Positions 8,982 to 19,601 of a stretch of 64,000 nucleotides of DNA are shown one piece after another. Origin of the DNA: Chitinophaga sp. E66 (lineage in GTDB: Bacteria > Bacteroidota > Bacteroidia > Chitinophagales > Chitinophagaceae); the NCBI GenBank assembly GCA_019285755.1, contig CP079103.1:1488001-1552000 (forward strand), read 5' to 3'. The notes beneath the pieces are model-generated. The model ran no database searches and had not been told where the DNA came from. It was given only the letters and a program-made list of their open reading frames with translations. Position 1 is the stretch's first letter. Each line of letters opens with the position of its first letter. The translations under genes and the position numbers were made by a program.

Positions 8982-9036
8982 CATTTGATGAGGATAGTCA
9001 TTGGCCGGTTTCCGCAGGTTTTGTATTTTCATCCAT

Positions 9037-10034
9037 ATGAAAATGCTATTCTTCTCCGCCAAACCATACGACAAGCAGTTCTTCTCCCGCGCCAACGAAA
9101 AACACGGCTTTGAACTGGAATTCCTGGAAACGCATCTTGGCCCGCATATCGTGAATGCCGTGGACGACGGAACGCCCGTGATCTGTACGTTCGTGAACGA
9201 TAAGCTGACGGAAGAGGTGATCGGCATCCTGGCCGCTAAAGGCGTGAAGGTGCTGGCGCTGCGATGCGCGGGTTTCAACAATGTGAACCTGGAGGCGGCG
9301 AAACAATACGGCATCCGTGTGTGCAGGGTGCCTGCCTATTCTCCGGAAGCAGTGGCGGAACACGCCCTGGCGATGTTGCTGACATTGGTCCGCAAGACCC
9401 ATAAGGCATACAACCGCGTGCGCGAACAGAACTTCGCGCTGAACGGATTGCTGGGCTTTAATCTCCATGGAAAAACGATAGGCGTCATCGGGACGGGCAA
9501 GATCGGCAAGGCTTTTGCAAGATCATCGCCGGGTTCGGTTGCCGGGTGCTGGCATCGGATCCCTATCCGGATCAGGAATTGCAGGCGGCGGGCGTGGAGT
9601 ACCTGCCGCTGGATGAACTGATGACTTCGGCAGATATCATTTCTTTACATTGCCCCCTTGTGCCGGAAAACAAATACCTCATCAACCGGGAAACGCTCCG
9701 CCGCATGAAACGCGGCGTAACCATCATCAATACCAGCCGTGGCGGCCTGCTGCATACCGCCGACGTGATCGACAGCCTGAAGTCCGGCCAGATCGCCTAT
9801 CTCGGCATCGATGTATATGAACAGGAGGAGAAACTCTTCTTCAAAGACCTCTCCGGCAGCATTATCGAAGACGATACCATCCAGCGGCTGATGAGCTTCC
9901 CCAATGTGCTCGTGACAGGGCACCAGGCATTCTTTACGGAAGAGGCGCTCCAGCAGATCGCAGAGATCACGTTGCGAAGCGTGGACCAGCTGATAAACGG
10001 GAAAGCGGTGAACGAAGAAGTGATCCTCGTATAG
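9037..10034 (+). CDS. ldhA: D-lactate dehydrogenase / D-2-hydroxyacid dehydrogenase (frame-broken)
   Basis: Cytoplasmic NAD-dependent enzyme interconverting pyruvate and D-lactate, about 332 codons, the usual length. ATG 9037 (MKMLFFSAKPYDKQFF) matches the family N-terminus; an in-frame TTG at 9001 is less likely. The nucleotide-binding glycine motif is GVIGTGKIGKAF. The catalytic residues are recognisable: Arg in NTSRGGLLHT, Glu in DVYEQEEKLFF and His in LVTGHQAFFTEEAL, the last being typical of D-lactate dehydrogenases rather than other family members. One frame change near 9520 follows the Rossmann motif. It is a single gene, convergent with the ATPase gene that ends 18 bp away. Confidence 0.9.
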
Positions 10035-10051: not shown

Positions 10052-13000
10052 TTATGCTTTTACCTGTGCGATCGCCCGTGCGATCGCCTCGAGGTGCTCA
10101 TTGAAGGAGCTCAGGTGCTGCAACATTTGTCCGGATGCATCTGTGGATGCCAACCCGCCAAACTTGTTGTTTTTCCGGAAGACCTCCAGTATCTGCTCCC
10201 AGCGACGGGTATCCGCATCTGTGAGGAGCCCGGCAATCTCTTTCATTTTTAGCAGGTTCGACTCGGCGTCTGAAGTGAGCGTCTGGGATTCGCTCTCGTA
10301 GTGGGAACGGATGAGCGTGGCGATTTCTTCGGTGTTCATGAGCGGCACCACTCTTCCCGCCAGTTTGTTCATATTTCGGTAAGAACCCTGCAGCTTGAAG
10401 GGAGGCTCGGTCCGATAAGCGTCTTTCATCGCCGCGCTGGCGATGTATTGCGCATTTACGCGGATGACGATATCGCGGATGCGCATGATGTTGCGCAAAA
10501 CGGCGATGGCATCTTCTGTTTCCTGGCGATTGTAATTGCCTTCCAGTTCCGGCAGCAGCTCGGCGCTGCTTTCGATATAACCGATCAGTTTATACAGATC
10601 TTCAAAACTCCGGTTGGCGATGCGTTGCAGGTAACTGTTTTCGGCGACCGCATTCTCTATCAGGCTCAGCCTGAACAATTCCGCCGATCCGCCTACTACA
10701 TCGCCCAGGTTGTACACGTCTGCCCGGTTAGACAGCATATCAGGTATCTTAAACTGTTCACCGCTTTCCGTATAAGGGTTGCCCGCCATGACAACGCAGA
10801 ACCGTTTGCCGCGAAGGTCGTAAGTTTTGCTCTCTCCTTCGAAAATACCGTCCATTTTACGTTGACCGTCGGCCAGGGAGATGAATTTTTGCAGGAACTC
10901 AGGGCTGCAGTGCTGGATGTCGTCGATATACAACATCACGTTATCGGCCATTTCGAAAGAAAGGTTGATCTTCTTTAATTCCTCACGGGCTCCTGAGGTG
11001 GTGGCTTCCAGCGGATCAATGGATGTGATGCCGTGGCCGATGGTAGGACCGTTGATCTTCACGAAATGCAGTCCCATGGTTTTAGCCAGGTATTCCATCA
11101 GGGTGGTTTTACCATAGCCCGGCGGCGATACCAGCAGGAGCATGCCCATGCGGGCCGTCCGCTTATCGTCTCCCGCCGTACCGATCTGTTTGGCGAGATT
11201 AGCGCCGATCAGGGGAAGTAAACTTCGCTGATAAGCCGGTTGCGAACGAAGGAGCTTAACACCTTGGGTTCGAATTCTCGTATTTTCAATTGCTGCCGGT
11301 AGGCGGCGGTCAGCTGTTCTTTTTCCTGGTTGAAGGACCTGAATGCGGGTACGGTCGTTGTGAAATAAGCCTGCATCTTCTGCTGGAAGGAGTGGAAATG
11401 CAGGAGGTATTTTCCTCCTTCCCCGATAACGGCGTGCGTGCCTTTAAGGCCTTCCAGCTGTAGTGAGTCGGAAGCAGGCCTTTCTTTATAGGGATGATCC
11501 GCAAACAACAGCAGGCATACGGCTTCGTCGAGGTATTGATCATCCGTACCGGCGGCCTGGGTCTTCACGAATGCGTCCAGCCAGCCCCGGATGACGCGGA
11601 AGCGTTCGGTTGTGCTGAAGGCGGGATTGGAGGCTTCCTGGAGGAAAAGTTCCGCGCGTTTCTGAGCGTGGAGGTATTCTTTAAAGTCTTTTTGATCCTT
11701 GCGGCTTGTTGGCTGCACGTGAATTGCGGGCCCTGGGAAAGCTCCTGGTACAGGTAATTGGCCACCTCGTCTGCATGAGCAGGGTACTTGCCCCTGATGC
11801 TGCCAGGTAGCGTGCCGCGATCTCCGCTTCCGCGAACGTGGCGTGGCTATCCGGGAAGCATTGCCGGATGGCGTGAGCGGCGGAGATCAGTTGCAGTAGT
11901 TTGGCTTGTGCGGGTTCGTCCTGGCTATGCCAGAAAAGTTGTCCGCCACGCGCAATGCCGGCGAAAACTGAAGGATGCCCAGCGCTTCGCGCAGCTTCCG
12001 CAATCCCTGGTAAATAACTGCGGCGTCCGTATTGTGAACGCCTTTCAGGTAAGCGGCGGCATAATCCCGCTCAGTCTGCCCGTCGATGTAGGCAGCGTAG
12101 TCCCAGTCCGTTCCATGGCGCAGGCTTTCATTCATCGCCTGGTAAGACAGGTATTCGCTTCTATAAACGGCTGCGTTTTCTGAAATGAGTTCCTGGTCCC
12201 AGATGGCCCGGTGGCGGTTGAGGGATTCCGCGGAAACTTCTTTGTAAAAGCTCGTCCCGGTGAGGTGATAGAACAGCCGGTCGTTGCGCCGGACCATGGT
12301 AAGGTCGAGCACCTGTTTGTTGATGACGAACTTATGTTTGCCAAGCGAAATGATGTGCTGTCCGTCGGCAAAGAGATCTGCTTTGTCTTTCAGGTTGCGC
12401 AGCGCCGTTTCTGGGCTACCTTCGTGAGGTTCGCCAGGTTCTCCGCCTTCGCCACATCTCCCAGTCCTTTGAGGTCCTCTACCAGTTCCCTGACCTTTTC
12501 GATCATCATGTCGCTGGAGAAGAATGCGTAGATGCTTTCTTTATCTGTGAATGACTGCGCTTTGTTTTCGATATTCTTCAATACCCGGATTCCGATCTGC
12601 TCCAGGGCGGAAGCGCGCTTGTTGATCTGTGCGATCAGTTGTTCCTTTCGCCCGTTGAATGCCTTGATCACTTCATCGCGCTTGTCGGCGATCTTGAGGA
12701 CGAACTCTTCGAATTCGGCGAACCGGCTTTCGAGCTCTTCGATCTGGATGCTGATCCGGGCGAAATAGTCGTCGCACTTTTCAGGGGTTACAGACAGATC
12801 GAGGAAGTTGACGATGCTTTGGTCGAGCAGGGTCAGCTGTGCGTGGAACTCTCCGGTGGATTCTTTGGACCGGAGGGCGGTAACGGTGCGCACCAGGCTG
12901 GCTTTGACCTCGTTCAGCGATGCGAATATCAGGATATCTTCTCGATGATCTGGGTGGTCTTGGTCGTATCGTCGATCTTCAGGCTGTTGAGGATGCCGAT

Positions 13001-14883
13001 CAGCATTTCCAGTCCTGCCGCGATACCATGGACGGCCTTTTCCACCGGCTGCGCATCGATCACCTTCGTGACCTTAGCAGCGGCAGCTTTCTGCTCCGCG
13101 ACCATGGCCTCGTATGGCGTCAACGCTTCATCTTTCAGGAGAAATTTTATGGTATCTTCTGACAGGGTAGCATTGTGCTGCTGCAAGGTCTCCTTCATGG
13201 CGTTGACCGCTGCCGCGTCGATATAACGGACGTTCAGCAGGTCAATGACCGCGCCCTGGGTGCTGCGGGTAGCGGACAATAATGCCACCAGCTGATCCAG
13301 CGAGGTAATGGAAGCGTTTTCACATCCACGACCAGCTGATCCACCCGCTTGCTCATCGCCTTCAGCGTTTCCGATGCATGGCTTCGCTGGGCCTGTACCT
13401 TGGCGAATTCGTCGATGGCGGTGTTGGCGATATCCCGGATCTGGGACAAGGGGCGGCGATATCGAATGCTTCCGGCTGTTTGATCCAGAAATAGCTGTCC
13501 AGGATATCGTTGGTTCGTTTGTGAACGTCCTCATACAGGCCTTCGTAGCTGTCTTCTTTCTGCAACAGTTGGATCACTTCCTGTCCTTCGCTCATGGCGC
13601 TCACGATGTCCTTATTGCCGATCTTGTACAGCACATTCCCGCTCATGGCGGTGTTCTCCTGCAGCACCAGGGCATAGGGCGTCTGCCAGATCTGTACCTG
13701 GTGATGCCTTTGGGCTTCCGCTTCGGAACGGAAATATACCAGCGTGCCGTTGTCGTATACGGTAAAACCATTGCAGACGATGGGCGTTTCCACCTGTTTG
13801 GCGATCATGTTGTACGACATGAGCAGGTAGGTGTTGGTCGTCTTCTGGTAGAATACGTAGAGGAAGTCCTCTCCGTTAGGGGATACTAGGCTGCGTATGA
13901 ATTCCAGCCCGGTGAGGCCGGAGTCGAATATTTTATGTTCGCCGTTTTGCAGGTAATATCCGTTGGGGAAGATGAGCCCTGGTTATCTGGGAGCAGCACG
14001 GCGGATTCGAGAATTGCCGGGATGGAGGTGACCTGTTTGGTCCGGACGTTGAAGATATAGGCCCGGGGCCTTCCTGGTAGGGTTTTATCCGGATGACGAT
14101 CAGGTTGCCGATATCGGCAAAGTGGTACTCGGCGTCATCCAGCTGTTGGTCCCTGTTCATGACAGGCTCGGAATAGATGCCCTTTCCCGTGTCGGTATTG
14201 TTTTCGATCTTGAAGGTGATATCGCCGTTCATCGCTTCGATAAACACCTTGTCCAGTATCGAAATATGGGGGTGAATGCCCAGGCGGCGGTGGCTAAGAT
14301 CTGTTTTCACCCATTCGAACTCATGCTGCGGGGCAAGCCGTGCTTCATGTACGCTGCGGTCGTCCACATACGACAGCTTCCCGTCTTTGATCAGCCACTT
14401 GAACGCTTTCCGGTCGTCCGGGTTCTTGCTCGTGAGGAAGATCATGTAGAGATAGTTCTCCGTCCGGGCAAACCGGGAGAAGATCGAATCGCGGTAGTAT
14501 TTGTACAGGTTGGTGAAGTCCGTTACAAAGGCCGGGTCCTCGATCAGCGTAAGCGGTTGCGGTTCGAAGTGGCCATCGGTGAACCGGTATATGCTGAACA
14601 CATCACTGAGCCGGATATCTTCGCGCAGCCCGAAATGGACGTTATAGGCGAAGATGGTCAGGTCGCCGAAGGCCATGATGCCCCGGGCCACGCCGTTATT
14701 TTCGGTAGTGATGCGTTGGTTGGCTACCAATTGAAAACCGGTAGAATTGAAAATTTCCTTCCTGGCGGCGTTCAGCTTCGCCAAACGCTGCGTCAGGTCG
14801 AGGCGCTGTTCGTTCAGCCGGTTGCGGATGATCTCATAAGTTCCGGAATCCAATACTGCTGTCGTACTTTCTAAATCTGCCAT
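10052..14883 (-). CDS. Giant coiled-coil protein with C-terminal AAA ATPase module (DNA repair ATPase-like family, frame-broken)
   Basis: About 1,610 codons and last gene of the pspA/flotillin cassette. The N-terminal 350 residues (MADLESTTAVLDSGTYEIIR...) look beta-rich. The middle is mostly helical coiled coil, for example RISIQIEELESRFAEFEEF and the stretch around QINKRASALEQIGIRVL. The C-terminal about 390 residues are an AAA ATPase: Walker A SPPGYGKTTLM (about 11100-11125), Walker B VMLYIDDIQHCS, sensor-1 Asn in CVVMAGNPY. At least ten frame changes occur (near 11217, 11720, 11805, 11925, 12410, 12932, 13318, 13452, 13985, 14067), and each joins smoothly; at 11217 it falls in a CCCC run. 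I recall such proteins being labelled DNA repair ATPase beside flotillin genes in Bacteroidota, but nothing visible proves a DNA function. Its neighbours argue for a membrane role. Confidence 0.82.
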
Positions 14884-14933
14884 TGCGCTGTGATGAGTTC
14901 GTTCTACGGGAATGCTTCTGCGAAATAAAAGGG

Positions 14934-16962
14934 TTACAATTTCCTGTTGGCAATGCCAAGGCTATTGGCAAGGTTGGCCAGGTTGAGCAGCGATGGCAGG
15001 TCGCTTTCAGAACTGTTTTGTTGCATTTTAAGGATCAGGCTGGAGATGGACAGGTTCTTGAGATCGTTTGTGGAAATATTATACTTCTCCGCAAATTCCT
15101 GATGCGTTCCATCAGGTCGCCGCCATTACCGTTGCCGTCCCCTATGAGTGCTGTCTTAATATGCGTGGCGTGCTCGCTTTCATTGATCAGGCGGTCAAAG
15201 CCACGGGCGTTCGACACCTGGTTAACGATATGCTGGAAGAACATGGTTTCGCCGCCTACGATATCGATACGGGCGTTCTTCAGCGCGTCGCCCAGTACAT
15301 TGGCCTGCGCATCGGCGATGTCTTTCTGGATATTGATCTGCGCCAGCGCGATCTCTTTGTCCTTATTCAGCATGAGTTTGAACTCTTCGTGGTCTTTACC
15401 TACGGCATCCAGCTTTTTCATAGCTTCGGCCTTTTCCTGGATACCGGCCGCTTCGGCGAGCGCTTTCTCTTTCGTTACTTCCGCCTGTACGAGGCCTTCC
15501 CTGCGTTTCGCATCGGCAATTTTCTCGATAACGGTAGCGTCTACGGTTCCCTGGCGTTCCGCGGCTTCGGCTTTGGCTATCATTACTTCTGCTTCGGAGA
15601 GGCCGAGGGTAGCTTCTTCCTGGCTTGTGCCTCAGCGAGGATCTTGCGGGCTTCGGCCTGCTTAACGGCGGCTTCTTTCCTGGCTTCCGCATCGATGATG
15701 AGCTGCTTGGCTTTTTCTTCCGCGGCTTTCTTTTCCGCTTCGGCGGCTTTAACCGTGTAGATCAGTTTTCTTCCGCCTGCTGGCTGGCCTGGGTGATACC
15801 TACCGTTTTCTCACGTTCTACGGCACGGAAGGCTTCGAGGTCTTTTACGCCCTGTTGCTCTTCCACCACGCCCTTTTCCAGGCGTACACGGTCGCGGATA
15901 ACATCCTGGATGTTTTTGCGCTCCACTTCCACGGTTTTTTCTTTGTCGATCTGCGCGAGGGTGACGATCTTTTCGCGTTCGGTGGCTTCCAGCGCGCGGT
16001 CCTTTTCCACTCTTTCCGTTTCTACGGCGTCGGTACGTTGCTTATTCTTTTCTGCGATGATGATCTGGCGCAGTTTGTTCTCTTCCTGAACGGCGAGTGA
16101 TTCATCGGTTTTGATACGGACGGATTGCGCTTTCAGGCGTTCTTCTTCCCGTACCTTGATGATCTCTGCGTTTTCGCGGGAGCGGATATTGTCGATCTCT
16201 CTTTTTTTTTTTCTTCTTTTTCCGCCATCTGCCGGTCCAGTTCGAGGATGGCTTCCCTGGCTTCGACGTCCTGTTTCTTGATCACCTTTTCTTCTTCCCT
16301 GCGGATGAGGTTGGCTTTGATATTCTGTTCAGCGGTCAGTTCCGTGATCTTTTTGATGCCCTGGGAGTCGAGGATATTCTGGGCGCTGAGGTACTTTATT
16401 TCCGTTTGCTCCAGGTAGTCGATGGCGCAGTCGTCCAGGATATATCCGTTCAGGTCGGTTCCGATGATGTTGAGGATTTCCGTACGGAATTCGCGGCGGG
16501 CTTCATATAGCTCGATAAAATCGAACTTTTGCCTACTGTCTTTAATGCTTCGGAGAATTTGGCCTCAAAGAGATTGCGTAACGTATCTACGTCGGAAGCC
16601 CGTTCTGTGCCAATGATCTGTGCAACGTTCAGTACGTCGTCGATATTCTTGTTTACGCGCACGAAGAACGCGACCTTGATATCTGCACGGATGTTGTCTT
16701 TACAGATGAGGCCATCATTCTCCAGCCGGTCGATCTGTAATTTCTTAACGGAAATGTCCATGATCTCCATCTGGTGCAAAATGGGAATGACGTACATTCC
16801 TTTGTTGAATGCCACTTTGCCGCCGCCTACACCGGTGCGTACGATCGCTTTGCCCTGGGGTATTTTTTTGTAGAATTTAGCAAAGGCATAGAGGATAATA
16901 AACACCAGGAATACGATACCGCCGACCATCAGCAGGCTGATTCCTCCGAGAGCTTCCATCAT
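14934..16962 (-). CDS. Flotillin-family (SPFH/Band 7) membrane protein, YqiK-like (frame-broken)
   Basis: About 676 codons. An N-terminal membrane helix (LMVGGIVFLVFIILYAFAKF) is followed by the SPFH/Band 7 domain (KAIVRTGVGGGKVAFNKGMY; VKKLQIDRLENDGLICKDN). A very long charged coiled coil rich in AEA, KAE and EKE repeats is the flotillin hallmark. The C-terminal tail ends LANSLGIANRKL. Flotillins form cage-like oligomers that organise membrane microdomains and fluidity. Breaks lie near 16530, 16208 (a poly-A run on the coding strand), 15770, 15610 and 15090. It is 50 bp upstream of the giant ATPase gene and 57 bp downstream of the YqiJ-like gene, matching the YqiJ-YqiK pairing known from E. 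coli. Confidence 0.88.
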
Positions 16963-17019
16963 GTTGAAGTTGATTTTTAGGTTAAGTTGAATGAATATTG
17001 TGAAGGTATAAGTTGCATG

Positions 17020-17703
17020 TTATACTACATTGCCCAGGTTGACTTCAGGCACTACGATGTAGTATTTGCGGTCCGCCGATTCGTCTGCGATCATCACTTC
17101 GGCGCCAAATTCAATGGTTTCGCCGGTTTTGCTCTGAACGTTGATTTGCAGGACGTCGCCTTTTATTTTCAGTTCGGCGGCGCCGATGGTATTGCCTGAA
17201 ATGGTAGAGCGCATGCGGGCTACGCGGCCCAGGTACTCTTGCGCCTCTTCTCCGTTGTAGCCCATAGCGTTGTATACTTTGATGAGGGGTTTTGTGGCGT
17301 ACCGTGTTAAAACGAATGCCACGGCGATAATCGGTATAAGGATAAAGATGGACATCCAGCCCCAGGCGGCGACGCCAAAAACGATCGATGAGGCCAGCGT
17401 CGTGATCCAGGCAATGAACTTAAACGTGGAATACACGACCATAAAAGGAACTTTCCCAATGTTAACATACTCCATGGCTTCCTGCAGGAACGATTTTCCG
17501 GTGGCGGCGTCGTTCATGTCGCTGTCCGGGCCGGCATCCGTATCGGCATCCGCGTCTGCGTCCACATCAGTGTCCATATCGCTGGCGCCTGAAATGCCGC
17601 CGCCGATGAACGAGAATATCCAGTAAGTGGCGGTAATGCCTGTAGCTACCGTCATGACGGCATTGCTGAGTGGGTGGAAGAGTAAGTTTGAGATATTCAA
17701 CAT
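17020..17703 (-). CDS. YqiJ-like membrane protein with OB-fold tail
   Basis: Intact, 227 aa. One N-terminal membrane helix (AVMTVATGITATYWIFSFIGG) is followed by a short aspartate-rich stretch (DMDTDVDADADADTDAG), then two or more membrane helices (FMVVYSTFKFIAWITTLASS; MSIFILIPIIAVAFVLT). A C-terminal beta domain (YLGRVARMRSTISGNTIGA ... ILQINVQSKTGET) resembles the NfeD/YqiJ OB-fold. Such proteins pair with a flotillin and are thought to anchor or modulate it. The stop is 3 bp from the pspA start region and the flotillin start is 57 bp further, so co-expression is almost certain. The acidic linker could face the periplasm or bind cations; that is speculation. Confidence 0.82.
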   Translation of the reverse strand: MLNISNLLFHPLSNAVMTVATGITATYWIFSFIGGGISGASDMDTDVDADADADTDAGPDSDMNDAATGKSFLQEAMEYVNIGKVPFMVVYSTFKFIAWITTLASSIVFGVAAWGWMSIFILIPIIAVAFVLTRYATKPLIKVYNAMGYNGEEAQEYLGRVARMRSTISGNTIGAAELKIKGDVLQINVQSKTGETIEFGAEVMIADESADRKYYIVVPEVNLGNVV

Positions 17704-17706
17704 AGG

Positions 17707-18420
17707 TTAAGGGTTATCCGTGATACCCAGTTTTTCTTTAATTGCTTTTAAATCTTTTTCTATCGATAAAGAGTCGTCTTTCAGTAATTCGTCCAGTTCA
17801 TGTTTGAGGGAGCTGTTTTTGCCCCGGGCTATTTCGCCATAAGCCTGTGCCAGAGCTTCCTGGTCTTCCACTTTGGCTTTCATGCGTTCCAGCATGGCAA
17901 TGGTTCCGTTATTGTCCAGCTGGGCGAGCTGTTTGTTTACCTGTTCGGTGGCTTTGCTTACCTTGGCGCGGGCTTTCAGGGTCCGGAGCTCCTTTTCCCA
18001 CTTTTCCATGTTCTCTTTCAGGATCTCGGTGTTGCGGAACATATCGCGGGACGACTGCTGCAGGGTTGTTACCTGGTGCCCCAGTTCCTCTGATTCCGCG
18101 TAGAACTTCCGGCGGAGGGAAAGCGCTTCCCTTGCAAGTTCCTCTGCTTTACCGAGATCAACATGCCCTGCCTGGGCCTTTTGCATGATCAAGATAGCCT
18201 TTTCCGCATAATTCAGCGATTCTTTCTGGCATTGCATCTGTTCGTTCTCCGTACGAATGGCAAGGGCCTTCACTTTCGCGTATGCTTCGGTGGCCTCCGT
18301 CAGGTCTTTTTGCAATTCGCGCAATCCCTGCTCCGTCATTTTTACAGGATCCTCCATTTTCTCTACCGCCGCATGGATCTCCGCTTGCCCAATTCTCAAT
18401 AGTCGCTTGAAAATGTTCAT
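17707..18420 (-). CDS. pspA: PspA/IM30 family membrane-stress protein
   Basis: Intact, 237 aa from the preferred ATG at 18420 (MNIFKRLLRIGQAEIHAAVE); an upstream in-frame ATG at 18429 adds MPI. The amphipathic N-terminal helix and the all-helical charged body (ELQKDLTEATEAYAKVKAL; ALSLRRKFYAESEELG) are typical of PspA/Vipp1, the bacterial ESCRT-III-like scaffold that coats and repairs stressed inner membrane. No PspB, PspC or PspF is nearby. The neighbours are YqiJ-like, flotillin and AAA genes instead, so this is a Psp variant in which an AAA protein may remodel the PspA scaffold (inference). It lies a few bases from the genes on both sides. Confidence 0.92.
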   Translation of the reverse strand: MNIFKRLLRIGQAEIHAAVEKMEDPVKMTEQGLRELQKDLTEATEAYAKVKALAIRTENEQMQCQKESLNYAEKAILIMQKAQAGHVDLGKAEELAREALSLRRKFYAESEELGHQVTTLQQSSRDMFRNTEILKENMEKWEKELRTLKARAKVSKATEQVNKQLAQLDNNGTIAMLERMKAKVEDQEALAQAYGEIARGKNSSLKHELDELLKDDSLSIEKDLKAIKEKLGITDNP

Positions 18421-18431
18421 GATTGGCAAAT

Positions 18432-18823
18432 TTATAGTTTTGAAAAATCTATGATTTGTTGCGCATATTCGCTCAGCAACAGCCCCAGCGAATTGATCGC
18501 GCCTTCGAATTCGATAAAATCGATGTTCCCCAGCTGCATGGTATATCTGAATAATACCTTGTTCCCGTCTTCACTGACCACAAAGGCGCCATGAATGGTA
18601 TCCCGGTTCTTTTGCAGCAGGGCTTTGAACATGGCCGCATTGTCGTCCCGGAAGGAAAACAGGTACTGCTCCATGATCAGGATTGGGGCGCAATGCCAAT
18701 GATAAGGTTGTGGATACCGTCCGCCTGGTTATCGATCTTTAGAATGCCGTTTTGCTCGTTTTTATACACAATCCTGCAATTCAACCGGGTGGCGAAATCT
18801 TCGATAGTGTCGATATAGGTCAT
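18432..18823 (-). CDS. Small YbjN / type III chaperone (Tir-like) family protein (frame-broken)
   Basis: About 130 codons, first gene of the cassette. The N-terminal part starts at 18823 (MTYIDTIEDFATRLNCRIVY). After a frame change in the GGGG run near 18688 it continues as PILIMEQYLFSFRDDNAAMF, then LLQKNRDTIHGAFVVSEDGN and LGNIDFIEFEGAINSLGLLL. The mixed alpha/beta pattern and the conserved-looking NR..HGAF segment resemble the YbjN/CesT-Tir chaperone fold, a class often annotated beside pspA in Bacteroidota. A DUF2170/YjfI-like protein, the partner of YjfJ-type PspA, is an alternative I cannot exclude. It could act as an adaptor or chaperone for PspA. Confidence 0.6.
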
Positions 18824-18848: not shown

Positions 18849-18879
18849 CAAATCTACGGTACTAATTCGATAGTGCAAA
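18849..18879 (-). promoter_or_regulatory. Promoter of the pspA/flotillin cassette
   Basis: On the minus strand a TTTG (plus 18876-18879) is separated by exactly 19 bp from TAGATTTG (plus 18849-18856). This fits the Bacteroidota sigma-ABfr consensus TTTG ... TAnnTTTG. Transcription would start near 18843, about 20 bp before the ATG at 18823. Confidence 0.7.
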
Positions 18880-18893
18880 ATATTTTAGCAGTA

Positions 18894-18920
18894 TTGTTAA
18901 AAATTTTACCCTTACTTTTG
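18894..18920 (+). promoter_or_regulatory. Promoter of the XRE regulator gene, probably giving a leaderless mRNA
   Basis: TTG at 18894-18896 is followed after 16 bp by TACTTTTG (18913-18920), a match to TAnnTTTG. A start about 5-7 bp downstream would fall on or next to the ATG at 18926, so the transcript may have no leader. An AAAATATTTT palindrome (18877-18886) lies between this promoter and the opposite one and could be an operator for the regulator. Confidence 0.5.
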
Positions 18921-18925
18921 TGGGG

Positions 18926-19601
18926 ATGTCAAAAATAGGGGCAAATATTAAAAAAATACGCACTACTAAAGGCTTGAGCCAGCAGGCATTTGCAGAGTTG
19001 TTCGATCTTACGAGGGGGAATATATCGTCTTATGAAGACAATCGGGCCGAACCCAGGATCGAAACACTGGTGCGAATTGCCAATTATTTTTGCATCCCGG
19101 TAGATAGCTTTATCCAGGACCAGTTGACGATTAACGAAATCCTTCAGTTCAACAGCGATAAATTATTGACGGACGAGCCGCCCGGCTCGCGCGTCCGCCT
19201 CCGGGAAGTGCCTTTCCTCAGCGATGATGTGTACGTAAAATGCCAATATGGCGACCTGGCGTTCAATGATTGGGGGCCTTCCCGAGGCTTGTACTGCCCG
19301 GCACGATCCATCAGAACCTGGCCGCGCTGGCGTTTAACCGCAACATTCCCCACCATGCGTCGTTACTGCCTTACCAGGTGAATGACGTGCTCGTGTTCGA
19401 AGAAGTAACCCAGGGAACATCCATCTGTGCGATGGCAAGACCGGCCTGTTTACTTCTGAACGGGAAATTATGATCGGCCAATATGCGGCTTCCGGCAGCG
19501 GCATGGACCTCGTCCTGAACGATTTCAAGCGGCAGCAATTTGACTTTACACCTAGTTTCGCATTCTGGAAGCTGTTCGCCACATATGAACATATTGTATA
19601 G
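18926..19601 (+). CDS. XRE-family transcriptional regulator with S24/LexA-like C-terminal domain (frame-broken)
   Basis: About 225 codons. The N-terminal HTH_3 domain is clear: IGANIKKIRTTKGLSQQAFA, then FDLTRGNISSYEDNRAEPRI. The C-terminal half (LPRLVLPGTIHQNLAALAF; LLPYQVNDVLVFEEV; KTGLFTSEREIMIGQYAASG) has the beta-rich look of the S24/LexA-CI peptidase-like fold. I cannot confidently place a Ser-Lys catalytic pair, so it may only dimerise or sense. ATG 18926 is preferred over the GTG at 18920, which lies inside the promoter. Breaks lie near 19285 and 19430. It is divergent from the membrane-stress cassette across 102 bp and probably controls it and itself. Confidence 0.8.

Follow-up and report, generated by a model that had tools for sequence, protein, structure and literature searches.

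A giant AAA+ ATPase encoded with flotillin, a YqiJ-like protein and CesT-PspA in Chitinophaga, and the divergent XRE-type regulator beside them

Do bacterial members of the ESCRT-III superfamily have an ATPase that serves them as Vps4 does its substrates? Liu et al. (2021) leave it unclear whether PspF plays such a part for PspA, or whether Vipp1 has an ATPase of this kind. The locus described here lies in a 64,000-nucleotide stretch of the Chitinophaga sp. E66 genome (the window in the following) and resembles an answer to that question, with PspA, a flotillin and a giant AAA+ ATPase encoded in one row. Its distribution, in turn, ties the ATPase to the flotillin and suggests that it can manage without PspA, so that a loose ESCRT analogy becomes a sharp question: which of the proteins is it that the ATPase binds and moves?

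The operon class to which the locus belongs has been published before: Ravi et al. (2024; PMC11237479) described CesT/Tir-PspA, band-7/flotillin, YqiJ and a propeller-coiled-coil-AAA+ protein in one operon (for instance, at ANH61663.1), proposed ESCRT-like roles for it and noted abbreviated operons without PspA, perhaps served by PspAs encoded elsewhere; the idea put forward in the initial annotation, which held the joint mechanism to be not worked out, had therefore been published. An XRE-type regulator gene and a 17-bp palindrome are our additions to the published description, along with the delimitation of a YqiJ-flotillin-ATPase core and the distribution of PspA and of the long flotillin given below. 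Neither a regulator of this type nor its operator is named in the searched main text of that paper, where a passage on 'cro' concerns ClgR, and we found no relevant paper by title that joins any three of PspA, the XRE family, flotillin and an operator.

Genes of the locus

The five cassette genes occupy positions 10052-18823 of the minus strand in the order CesT/Tir-like, pspA, YqiJ-like, flotillin and giant ATPase, as initially annotated, and a sixth gene diverges from them:

18926..19601, plus strand: XRE/Cro-type HTH regulator, about 225 aa, found by tblastn with intact homologues from two of the fetched loci, L022 and L047
18874..18890, no strand: putative operator, 17-bp palindrome TGCTAAAATATTTTGCA, a conserved motif between regulator and cassette
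18849..18879, minus strand: predicted Bacteroidota-type promoter, TTTG (18879-18876), 19 nt, TAGATTTG (18856-18849)
18432..18823, minus strand: CesT/Tir-like chaperone gene, frame change near 18686-18692 (CesT_Tir_1, 1.2e-40)
17707..18420, minus strand: pspA, ESCRT-III superfamily, intact (PspA_IM30, 3.3e-40)
17020..17703, minus strand: intact gene for a YqiJ/YuaF-like membrane protein that has an Asp-rich loop (YqiJ_N, 1.4e-4)
14934..16962, minus strand: flotillin/SPFH gene, about 675 aa, five frame changes (Band_7, 3.1e-8, over the cut-off)
10052..14883, minus strand: giant ATPase, about 1613 aa, ten frame changes (DUF3686, 1.1e-87; AAA, 1.9e-9)

Read off the sequence, the gaps measure 11 nt (CesT-PspA), 3 nt (PspA-YqiJ), 57 nt (YqiJ-flotillin) and 50 nt (flotillin-ATPase). 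Since the same order recurs in 63 of the 89 loci that we fetched (9 others are cut by contig ends), it is above chance.

By our own reading, backed by tblastn with intact relatives, three of the five genes (CesT, flotillin and ATPase) carry frame changes. These are most likely assembly errors, because the source assembly, a single 6.29-Mb contig, has a completeness score of 65%, because the neighbouring regulator gene is likewise broken (two frame changes, near 19273-19300 and 19414, according to tblastn with its L022 and L047 homologues), and because an intact ATPase relative (P0001) of 1613 aa is 91% identical to the read-through of the window copy. Chitinophaga japonensis has a more distant one, of 80% identity. 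In the Pfam searches, gene 1 was queried as two pieces joined by X, and genes 4 and 5 were queried as pieces.

The CesT gene starts with an ATG at 18823 and matches L022 with 93/87% identity in tblastn, while PspA is 87-88% identical to its L022 and L047 counterparts and is the sole PspA_IM30 match in its own genome. The adjacent CesT_Tir_1 and PspA_IM30 genes form the CesT/Tir-PspA dyad of the class of Ravi et al. (2024). PspA belongs to the ESCRT-III superfamily by its domain and by its sequence relation to solved PspA and Vipp1 chains, which are its nearest relatives of known structure (Synechocystis sll0617 in the PDB, 1e-15). In an NCBIfam scan that left out gene 1, PspA-type models fitted best, all far under the cut-off.

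In the window copy of the YqiJ-like protein, YqiJ_N scores 22.5 bits, just below the 23-bit cut-off. Its family was counted as YqiJ/YuaF-type, with YqiJ_N found in 20 of 41 members at E<=0.01 (best 3.6e-8). Bearing on a possible C-terminal OB fold of the NfeD/YuaF kind, NfeD matches one of the 41, and YuaF (2k14) is the best PDB match of the family profile, weak at E=0.013. Along its length, the flotillin matches L022 and L047 in tblastn segments of 76-93% identity; by eye, it has a hydrophobic N-terminal segment and charged repeats. No C-terminal flotillin domain was matched by Pfam in the pieces scanned, two intact relatives gave no Pfam match whatsoever at E<=0.01, and the flotillin profile found nothing in the PDB at 1e-5.

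For the ATPase, a layout of N-terminal beta-propeller, coiled coils and C-terminal AAA+ domain is predicted, with the Pfam matches to DUF3686 at the N-terminus and to AAA at the C-terminus, and with an AAA fold apparently nearest to the MoxR and Clp types and possibly of the MoxR/CbbQ/NorQ clade. All 87 aligned rows share PPGYGKTT, an atypical Asp-Asp Walker B, Asn1372 and Arg1390, which we take to represent the Walker A, Walker B, sensor 1 and arginine finger elements of an AAA+ protein. Where Vps4 carries an N-terminal MIT domain, this protein has the predicted propeller: MIT, searched for under what we presume to be its accession, is absent from the precomputed domains listed for 120 of its 3580 relatives, and Vps4 is not among the VIA matches listed. 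Likewise, no protease domain was found by Pfam in the five ATPase pieces or, with PF25472 left aside, among the precomputed domains of the same 120.

The regulator and its putative operator

The regulator is encoded divergently in all 63 loci that bear CesT-PspA and in two loci without the pair; its helix-turn-helix domain was scored on the L022 homologue (HTH_3, 1.3e-9). The palindrome TGCWAAN5TTWGCA is present in 61 of 66 intergenic regions between regulator and cassette (mean 0.09 and maximum 1 in 100 shuffles) and in none of the 14 loci that consist of YqiJ, flotillin and ATPase only. From this pattern, it is likely to be the operator bound by the XRE regulator.

The TTTG of the predicted promoter sits within an operator arm, so that promoter and palindrome overlap, and a TAnnTTT element follows the operator by 16-18 nt in 44 of the 61 regions, by exactly 17 nt in the window. 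We assigned its type by what we take to be the Bacteroidota -33/-7 consensus. As for the single clear promoter initially annotated, the conserved candidate is this Bacteroidota-type element (18879-18849) and not the strongest sigma-70-like match (18932..18903); the 10 sigma-70-like matches in the region stand at chance level (9.0 expected).

The genome of this strain holds two exact operator sites in all; as the one further site equals the single site of a backwards control, we claim no wider regulon. Regulator and putative operator would offer a ready reporter for the inducing signal of the system.

Distribution of the cassette and its parts

Of the 89 loci, 63 comprise regulator, CesT, PspA, YqiJ, flotillin and ATPase, 14 only YqiJ, flotillin and ATPase, two regulator, YqiJ, flotillin and ATPase, and one the ATPase alone. 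The full order spans nine named families of Bacteroidota, beyond the close relatives to which it might have been confined. Among the 80 loci uncut by contig ends, the YqiJ-flotillin-ATPase core is found in 79, across three phyla, and 63 of these add CesT-PspA; the ATPase thus occurs without the pair in 17 of 80.

Elsewhere in these 17 genomes, PF04012 matches in seven at E<=1e-3, six of which exceed the cut-off; in the other ten, PspA is undetectable by PF04012, nor is there a match to a profile built from the PspA clade of the cassette. Among 17 control genomes (those of 16 of the 63 full-operon loci and the strain's own), PspA was detected in all (Fisher p=9e-5 on cut-off counts, 6/17 versus controls). 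The PspAs encoded elsewhere that Ravi et al. (2024) suggested are therefore undetectable in 10 of 17 cases.

Within the phylum, DUF3686 occurs in 10 of 392 genomes, nine of which hold the nine best matches to the long flotillin (3.6e-228 or better, against 3.8e-89 for the genome that follows). In the remaining one, the strain's own, the flotillin is matched in three pieces (best 1.5e-75) because of its frame changes. No other sampled genome of the genus (0 of 18) has the ATPase. When near-copies are removed, which leaves 49 of 62 loci, the partial correlations between pairwise distances amount to 0.68 for ATPase and flotillin, 0.45 for ATPase and regulator, 0.44 for PspA and CesT, and 0.22 for ATPase and PspA. 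Over the ATPase tree, built without the fragmentary L035 and L044 (ATPase piece <1400 aa) and with contig-end-cut loci unscored for the pair, the presence of CesT-PspA switches at least five times. The tree also crosses families: two Chryseobacterium loci group with Paenimyroides inside the Sphingobacterium group.

The pair also occurs by itself: in ten of ten stretches, drawn from 14 genomes with a strong CesT match and without the ATPase, CesT-PspA has no YqiJ, flotillin or ATPase match nearby. A conserved C-terminal PspA tail, L..(L/I/M)K after a variable linker, is found in 62 of 63 ATPase-linked PspAs. We had considered it as an ATPase dock and set it aside, because by eye similar tails end all ten of these PspAs without a nearby ATPase.

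What the ATPase may act on

The locus is a membrane-stress gene set, a conserved operon of membrane-stress families, and its PspA is close to solved PspA and Vipp1; to this extent, the initial view is supported. Its other half, the ATPase as the motor that disassembles or reshapes PspA polymers like a bacterial Vps4, with the flotillin merely placing the machine, is weakened, and we now consider it unlikely. As with Vps4, the genes of an AAA+ ATPase and of an ESCRT-III superfamily member are neighbours, and they share one operon in 63 of 89 loci. From gene neighbourhoods that combine PspA/Snf7 with AAA+ proteins, Ravi et al. make a case for remodelling driven by ATP; Liu et al. (2021) leave room for such a role, and six of the 17 genomes whose locus lacks the pair have a PspA gene in another place. 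Unlike Vps4, however, this ATPase has a predicted propeller in place of MIT and persists in ten genomes without a detectable ESCRT-III substrate, and the PspA tail is shared with relatives that have no ATPase.

The patchy spread of the cassette would be explained if it were a horizontally mobile envelope-defence module that detects when phages or toxins damage the membrane and then repairs or isolates the damage. Its absence from the other genomes of the genus, its rarity in the phylum, an ATPase tree that crosses family lines and an XRE-type regulator of its own are consistent with this, but PADLOC gave only weak matches (0.001-0.009) on ten pieces that left out CesT, and by eye the 17 loci without CesT-PspA have no recurrent defence neighbours (their recurrent neighbours, among the 25 matches listed, come mostly from sister-species pairs), so that we hold it to be improbable. 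Less credible still is a DNA-repair ATPase that is linked only loosely, or by chance, to the membrane genes. The Pfam description of DUF3686 does read 'ATPase involved in DNA repair', many relatives are named 'DNA repair ATPase', and Foldseek matches include the helicases RuvB and MCM; yet we found no source for the name, no paper naming the DUF3686 family and none pairing the name with flotillin, whereas the ATPase is coupled to YqiJ and flotillin in 79 of 80 loci and tracks the long flotillin in its occurrence.

We lean towards a single membrane machine of flotillin, YqiJ-type partner and giant ATPase, with CesT-PspA as an accessory and XRE repression at the operator. The ATPase most likely serves the flotillin-YqiJ complex, as FtsH does with HflKC, and PspA is probably an add-on, because the core is nearly invariant, some of its genomes lack a detectable PspA, and ATPase and long flotillin co-occur. 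We infer the physical contacts and the work of the proteins as follows. Membrane stress would free the operator of its repressor. At the inner membrane, a scaffold or cage would be formed by the flotillin and anchored by YqiJ. The ATPase would attach to it by way of the propeller and the coiled coils, and the MoxR-like AAA+ ring at the C-terminus of the ATPase could then remodel or extract the clients gathered there, as FtsH works with the HflK/HflC cage. The CesT-like protein would restrain PspA, and PspA would be drawn to the flotillin site, where it may seal or stabilise the stressed membrane, much as the SPFH protein YdjI recruits PspA in Bacillus subtilis. More tentatively, and possible rather than probable, this would be a second bacterial SPFH-AAA+ machine beside HflKC-FtsH, a flotillin-YqiJ cage with a 1600-residue propeller-coiled-coil-MoxR-type ATPase, independent of ESCRT-III, with PspA as an interchangeable sealing module in many Bacteroidota and a dedicated XRE switch. 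Relatives that have naturally lost CesT-PspA provide a built-in genetic control.

Known systems share parts of this design. At the inner membrane, HflK/HflC-FtsH likewise joins an SPFH assembly to an AAA+ machine, but FtsH is a membrane-bound protease and the cassette ATPase is far larger. In the Bacillus subtilis pspA-ydjGHI operon, the SPFH protein YdjI localises PspA (PMC8581546), bringing it to the membrane together with membrane partners; these partners are different ones, and the consulted text names no ATPase in the operon. In Pseudomonas aeruginosa, the bac cluster (PA14_16140-16180, with BacA/YjfI, BacB/PspA, a short NfeD and PaFlo3) also groups CesT/Tir-like, PspA, NfeD-type and SPFH genes. 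Unlike in the cassette, BacA is of the DUF2170 type and the consulted text makes no mention of a giant ATPase; for the region upstream of bacA, a putative site for sigma-54 is reported.

Composition of the cassette and its published relatives

The initial annotation had described a five-gene order, and re-reading the minus strand bore out both this order and its coordinates. The cassette genes were assigned by sequence reading and Pfam, the regulator gene by homology and Pfam, and the operator by pattern search:

18926 (start), divergent from the cassette: XRE/Cro-type HTH regulator gene
18874-18890, between regulator and cassette: putative operator TGCWAAN5TTWGCA
18823-18432, minus: CesT-like chaperone gene
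18420-17707, minus: pspA
17703-17020, minus: YqiJ-like gene
16962-14934, minus: flotillin gene
14883-10052, minus: giant ATPase gene

As read, the CesT-like gene contains one frame change, the flotillin gene five and the ATPase gene ten. These are likely indel errors, since the adjacent regulator gene is interrupted in like manner, the genome, a single 6.29-Mb contig, has a completeness score of only 65%, and an intact ATPase relative of 1613 residues (P0001) is 91% identical to the read-through of the window ATPase. In all 87 aligned ATPases, Walker B reads Asp-Asp, not Asp-Glu, at residues 1324-1325 (P0001 numbering). YqiJ residues about 42-65 (window 17509-17580, minus), after the first hydrophobic segment, form an alternating Asp-rich loop, DMDTDVDADADADTDAGPDSD, a possible candidate for cation binding; by eye, most of the 21 rows displayed from the family alignment retain it, though not every one. 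The convergent neighbour (9001-10034, plus), in two frames, resembles a D-2-hydroxyacid dehydrogenase by eye.

Ravi et al. (2024; PMC11237479) describe this operon class and put forward ESCRT-like roles for it, so the cassette adds a member to a class already in print. Sister arrangements have been studied in P. aeruginosa (the bac cluster) and in B. subtilis (the pspA-ydjGHI operon); in the latter, PspA depends on the SPFH protein YdjI to reach the membrane (PMC8581546). Whether PspA or Vipp1 has a Vps4 equivalent is called unclear by Liu et al. (2021), and the operon supplies no clear one for either.

Distribution and separable modules

DUF3686, which marks the ATPase, was found in none of the 18 other same-genus and 11 same-order genomes sampled; across the phylum, 10 of 392 genomes carry it, including E66 itself. 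A contig scan confirmed 543 loci, of which the best 80, from Bacteroidota, Planctomycetota and Calditrichota, were kept; together with nine loci from the phylum search, they form a set of 89 with some near-copies (e.g. L019 and L071, which coincide on the ATPase tree), classified by home-made profiles. The full regulator-CesT-PspA-YqiJ-flotillin-ATPase set was found in 63 of these 89 loci (best 80 of 543 plus nine); 14 hold YqiJ-flotillin-ATPase alone, two, both Chryseobacterium, hold regulator-YqiJ-flotillin-ATPase without CesT-PspA, one holds the ATPase by itself, and nine are ended by contig edges. Within the same set, L087 is the sole uncut locus without a flotillin or YqiJ match adjoining the ATPase; its genome has a PspA_IM30 match at another place.

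The long-flotillin profile matched 22 of the 392 phylum genomes at 1e-30, and the top nine matches (3.6e-228 or better) fall in nine of the ten ATPase genomes. In the tenth, that of E66, flotillin matched as three pieces because of the frame changes, the best of them (1.5e-75) outranked by six of the twelve ATPase-less genomes with a match (the six, 3.8e-89 to 9.1e-83; all twelve, 3.8e-89 to 4.8e-54). CesT_Tir_1 occurs in 50 of the 392 genomes (45 over cut-off), all ten ATPase carriers among them. In ten stretches taken from among the 14 strong-CesT genomes without the ATPase, CesT adjoins PspA, with no flotillin, YqiJ or ATPase match. Across 49 loci, the partial distance correlation is highest for ATPase-flotillin (0.68), followed by ATPase-regulator (0.45) and PspA-CesT (0.44); ATPase-PspA reaches 0.22. 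The flotillin and CesT-PspA modules thus each occur separately, and the ATPase is part of the former.

All 17 loci with upstream room but without CesT-PspA (among the best 80 of 543 plus nine) were traced to their genomes. PspA_IM30 (PF04012) was found in seven of these (six over cut-off) and in all 17 controls, comprising 16 genomes from the 63 full loci and that of E66, whose only match lies at the operon. A profile built from this PspA clade found nothing in the ten PF04012-negative genomes; in the one genome whose PF04012 match is below cut-off, it matched 18 residues. By title, the ten are four MAGs and six isolates (Myroides phaeus, M. marinus, Dysgonomonas capnocytophagoides, Chryseobacterium balustinum, C. 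aahli and Pontibacter sp.).

At least five changes are required to fit the presence or absence of CesT-PspA to the ATPase tree, which covers 87 loci after omission of two fragments, with contig-cut loci unscored for CesT-PspA. Chryseobacterium L033 and L041 group with Paenimyroides within the Sphingobacterium part, which suggests horizontal transfer. Six Sphingobacterium loci (L034, L036, L037, L040, L045, L064) have much weaker PspA scores (8e-53 to 4e-60) than sister loci such as L028, L029, L032 and L043 (1e-82 to 1e-84), and their ATPases remain close to those of the sisters; PspA replacement or fast change would account for this.

On the best reading, the ATPase would serve a flotillin-YqiJ scaffold, CesT-PspA being a probable accessory and the XRE regulator the putative switch. 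The gene content, the separable modules and the joint occurrence of regulator and operator pattern are observed; contacts, cage, client and signal are what we infer for such a system. HflKC-FtsH is the nearest working model for flotillin-YqiJ with the ATPase.

The divergent regulator and its putative operator

Among the best 80 of 543 plus nine loci, the XRE/Cro-type regulator accompanies all 63 full loci and is kept in two without CesT-PspA. A Peptidase_S24-like C-terminal domain is weakly matched in two regulators (L013:4347-5099, 5.2e-5, slightly above cut-off; L016:9723-10469, 0.0023, below it) and absent from the one Chitinophaga homologue scanned; the sensor part may have been exchanged among lineages.

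The operator pattern TGCWAAN5TTWGCA is present in 61 of 66 regulator-cassette regions (65 loci and the window), whereas 100 shuffles gave 0.09 on average and never more than 1. It occurs in none of the 14 core-only (YqiJ-flotillin-ATPase) loci, all regulator-less (L087, a fifteenth regulator-less locus, was left out). In 44 of the 61 regions, TAnnTTT follows after 16-18 nt, in 38 after exactly 17. The predicted promoter in the window is TTTG-N19-TAGATTTG, which has the Bacteroidota promoter form; its TTTG lies within an operator arm, so regulator binding is predicted to block the promoter.

Taken at full length (1.53 Mb), the 65 loci with a regulator contain 104 exact sites; the pattern is therefore also found elsewhere in these mostly AT-rich genomes. 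In the E66 genome, a second exact copy, distant from the cassette (C1:463917-463933), may be due to chance; the backwards control also gave one site.
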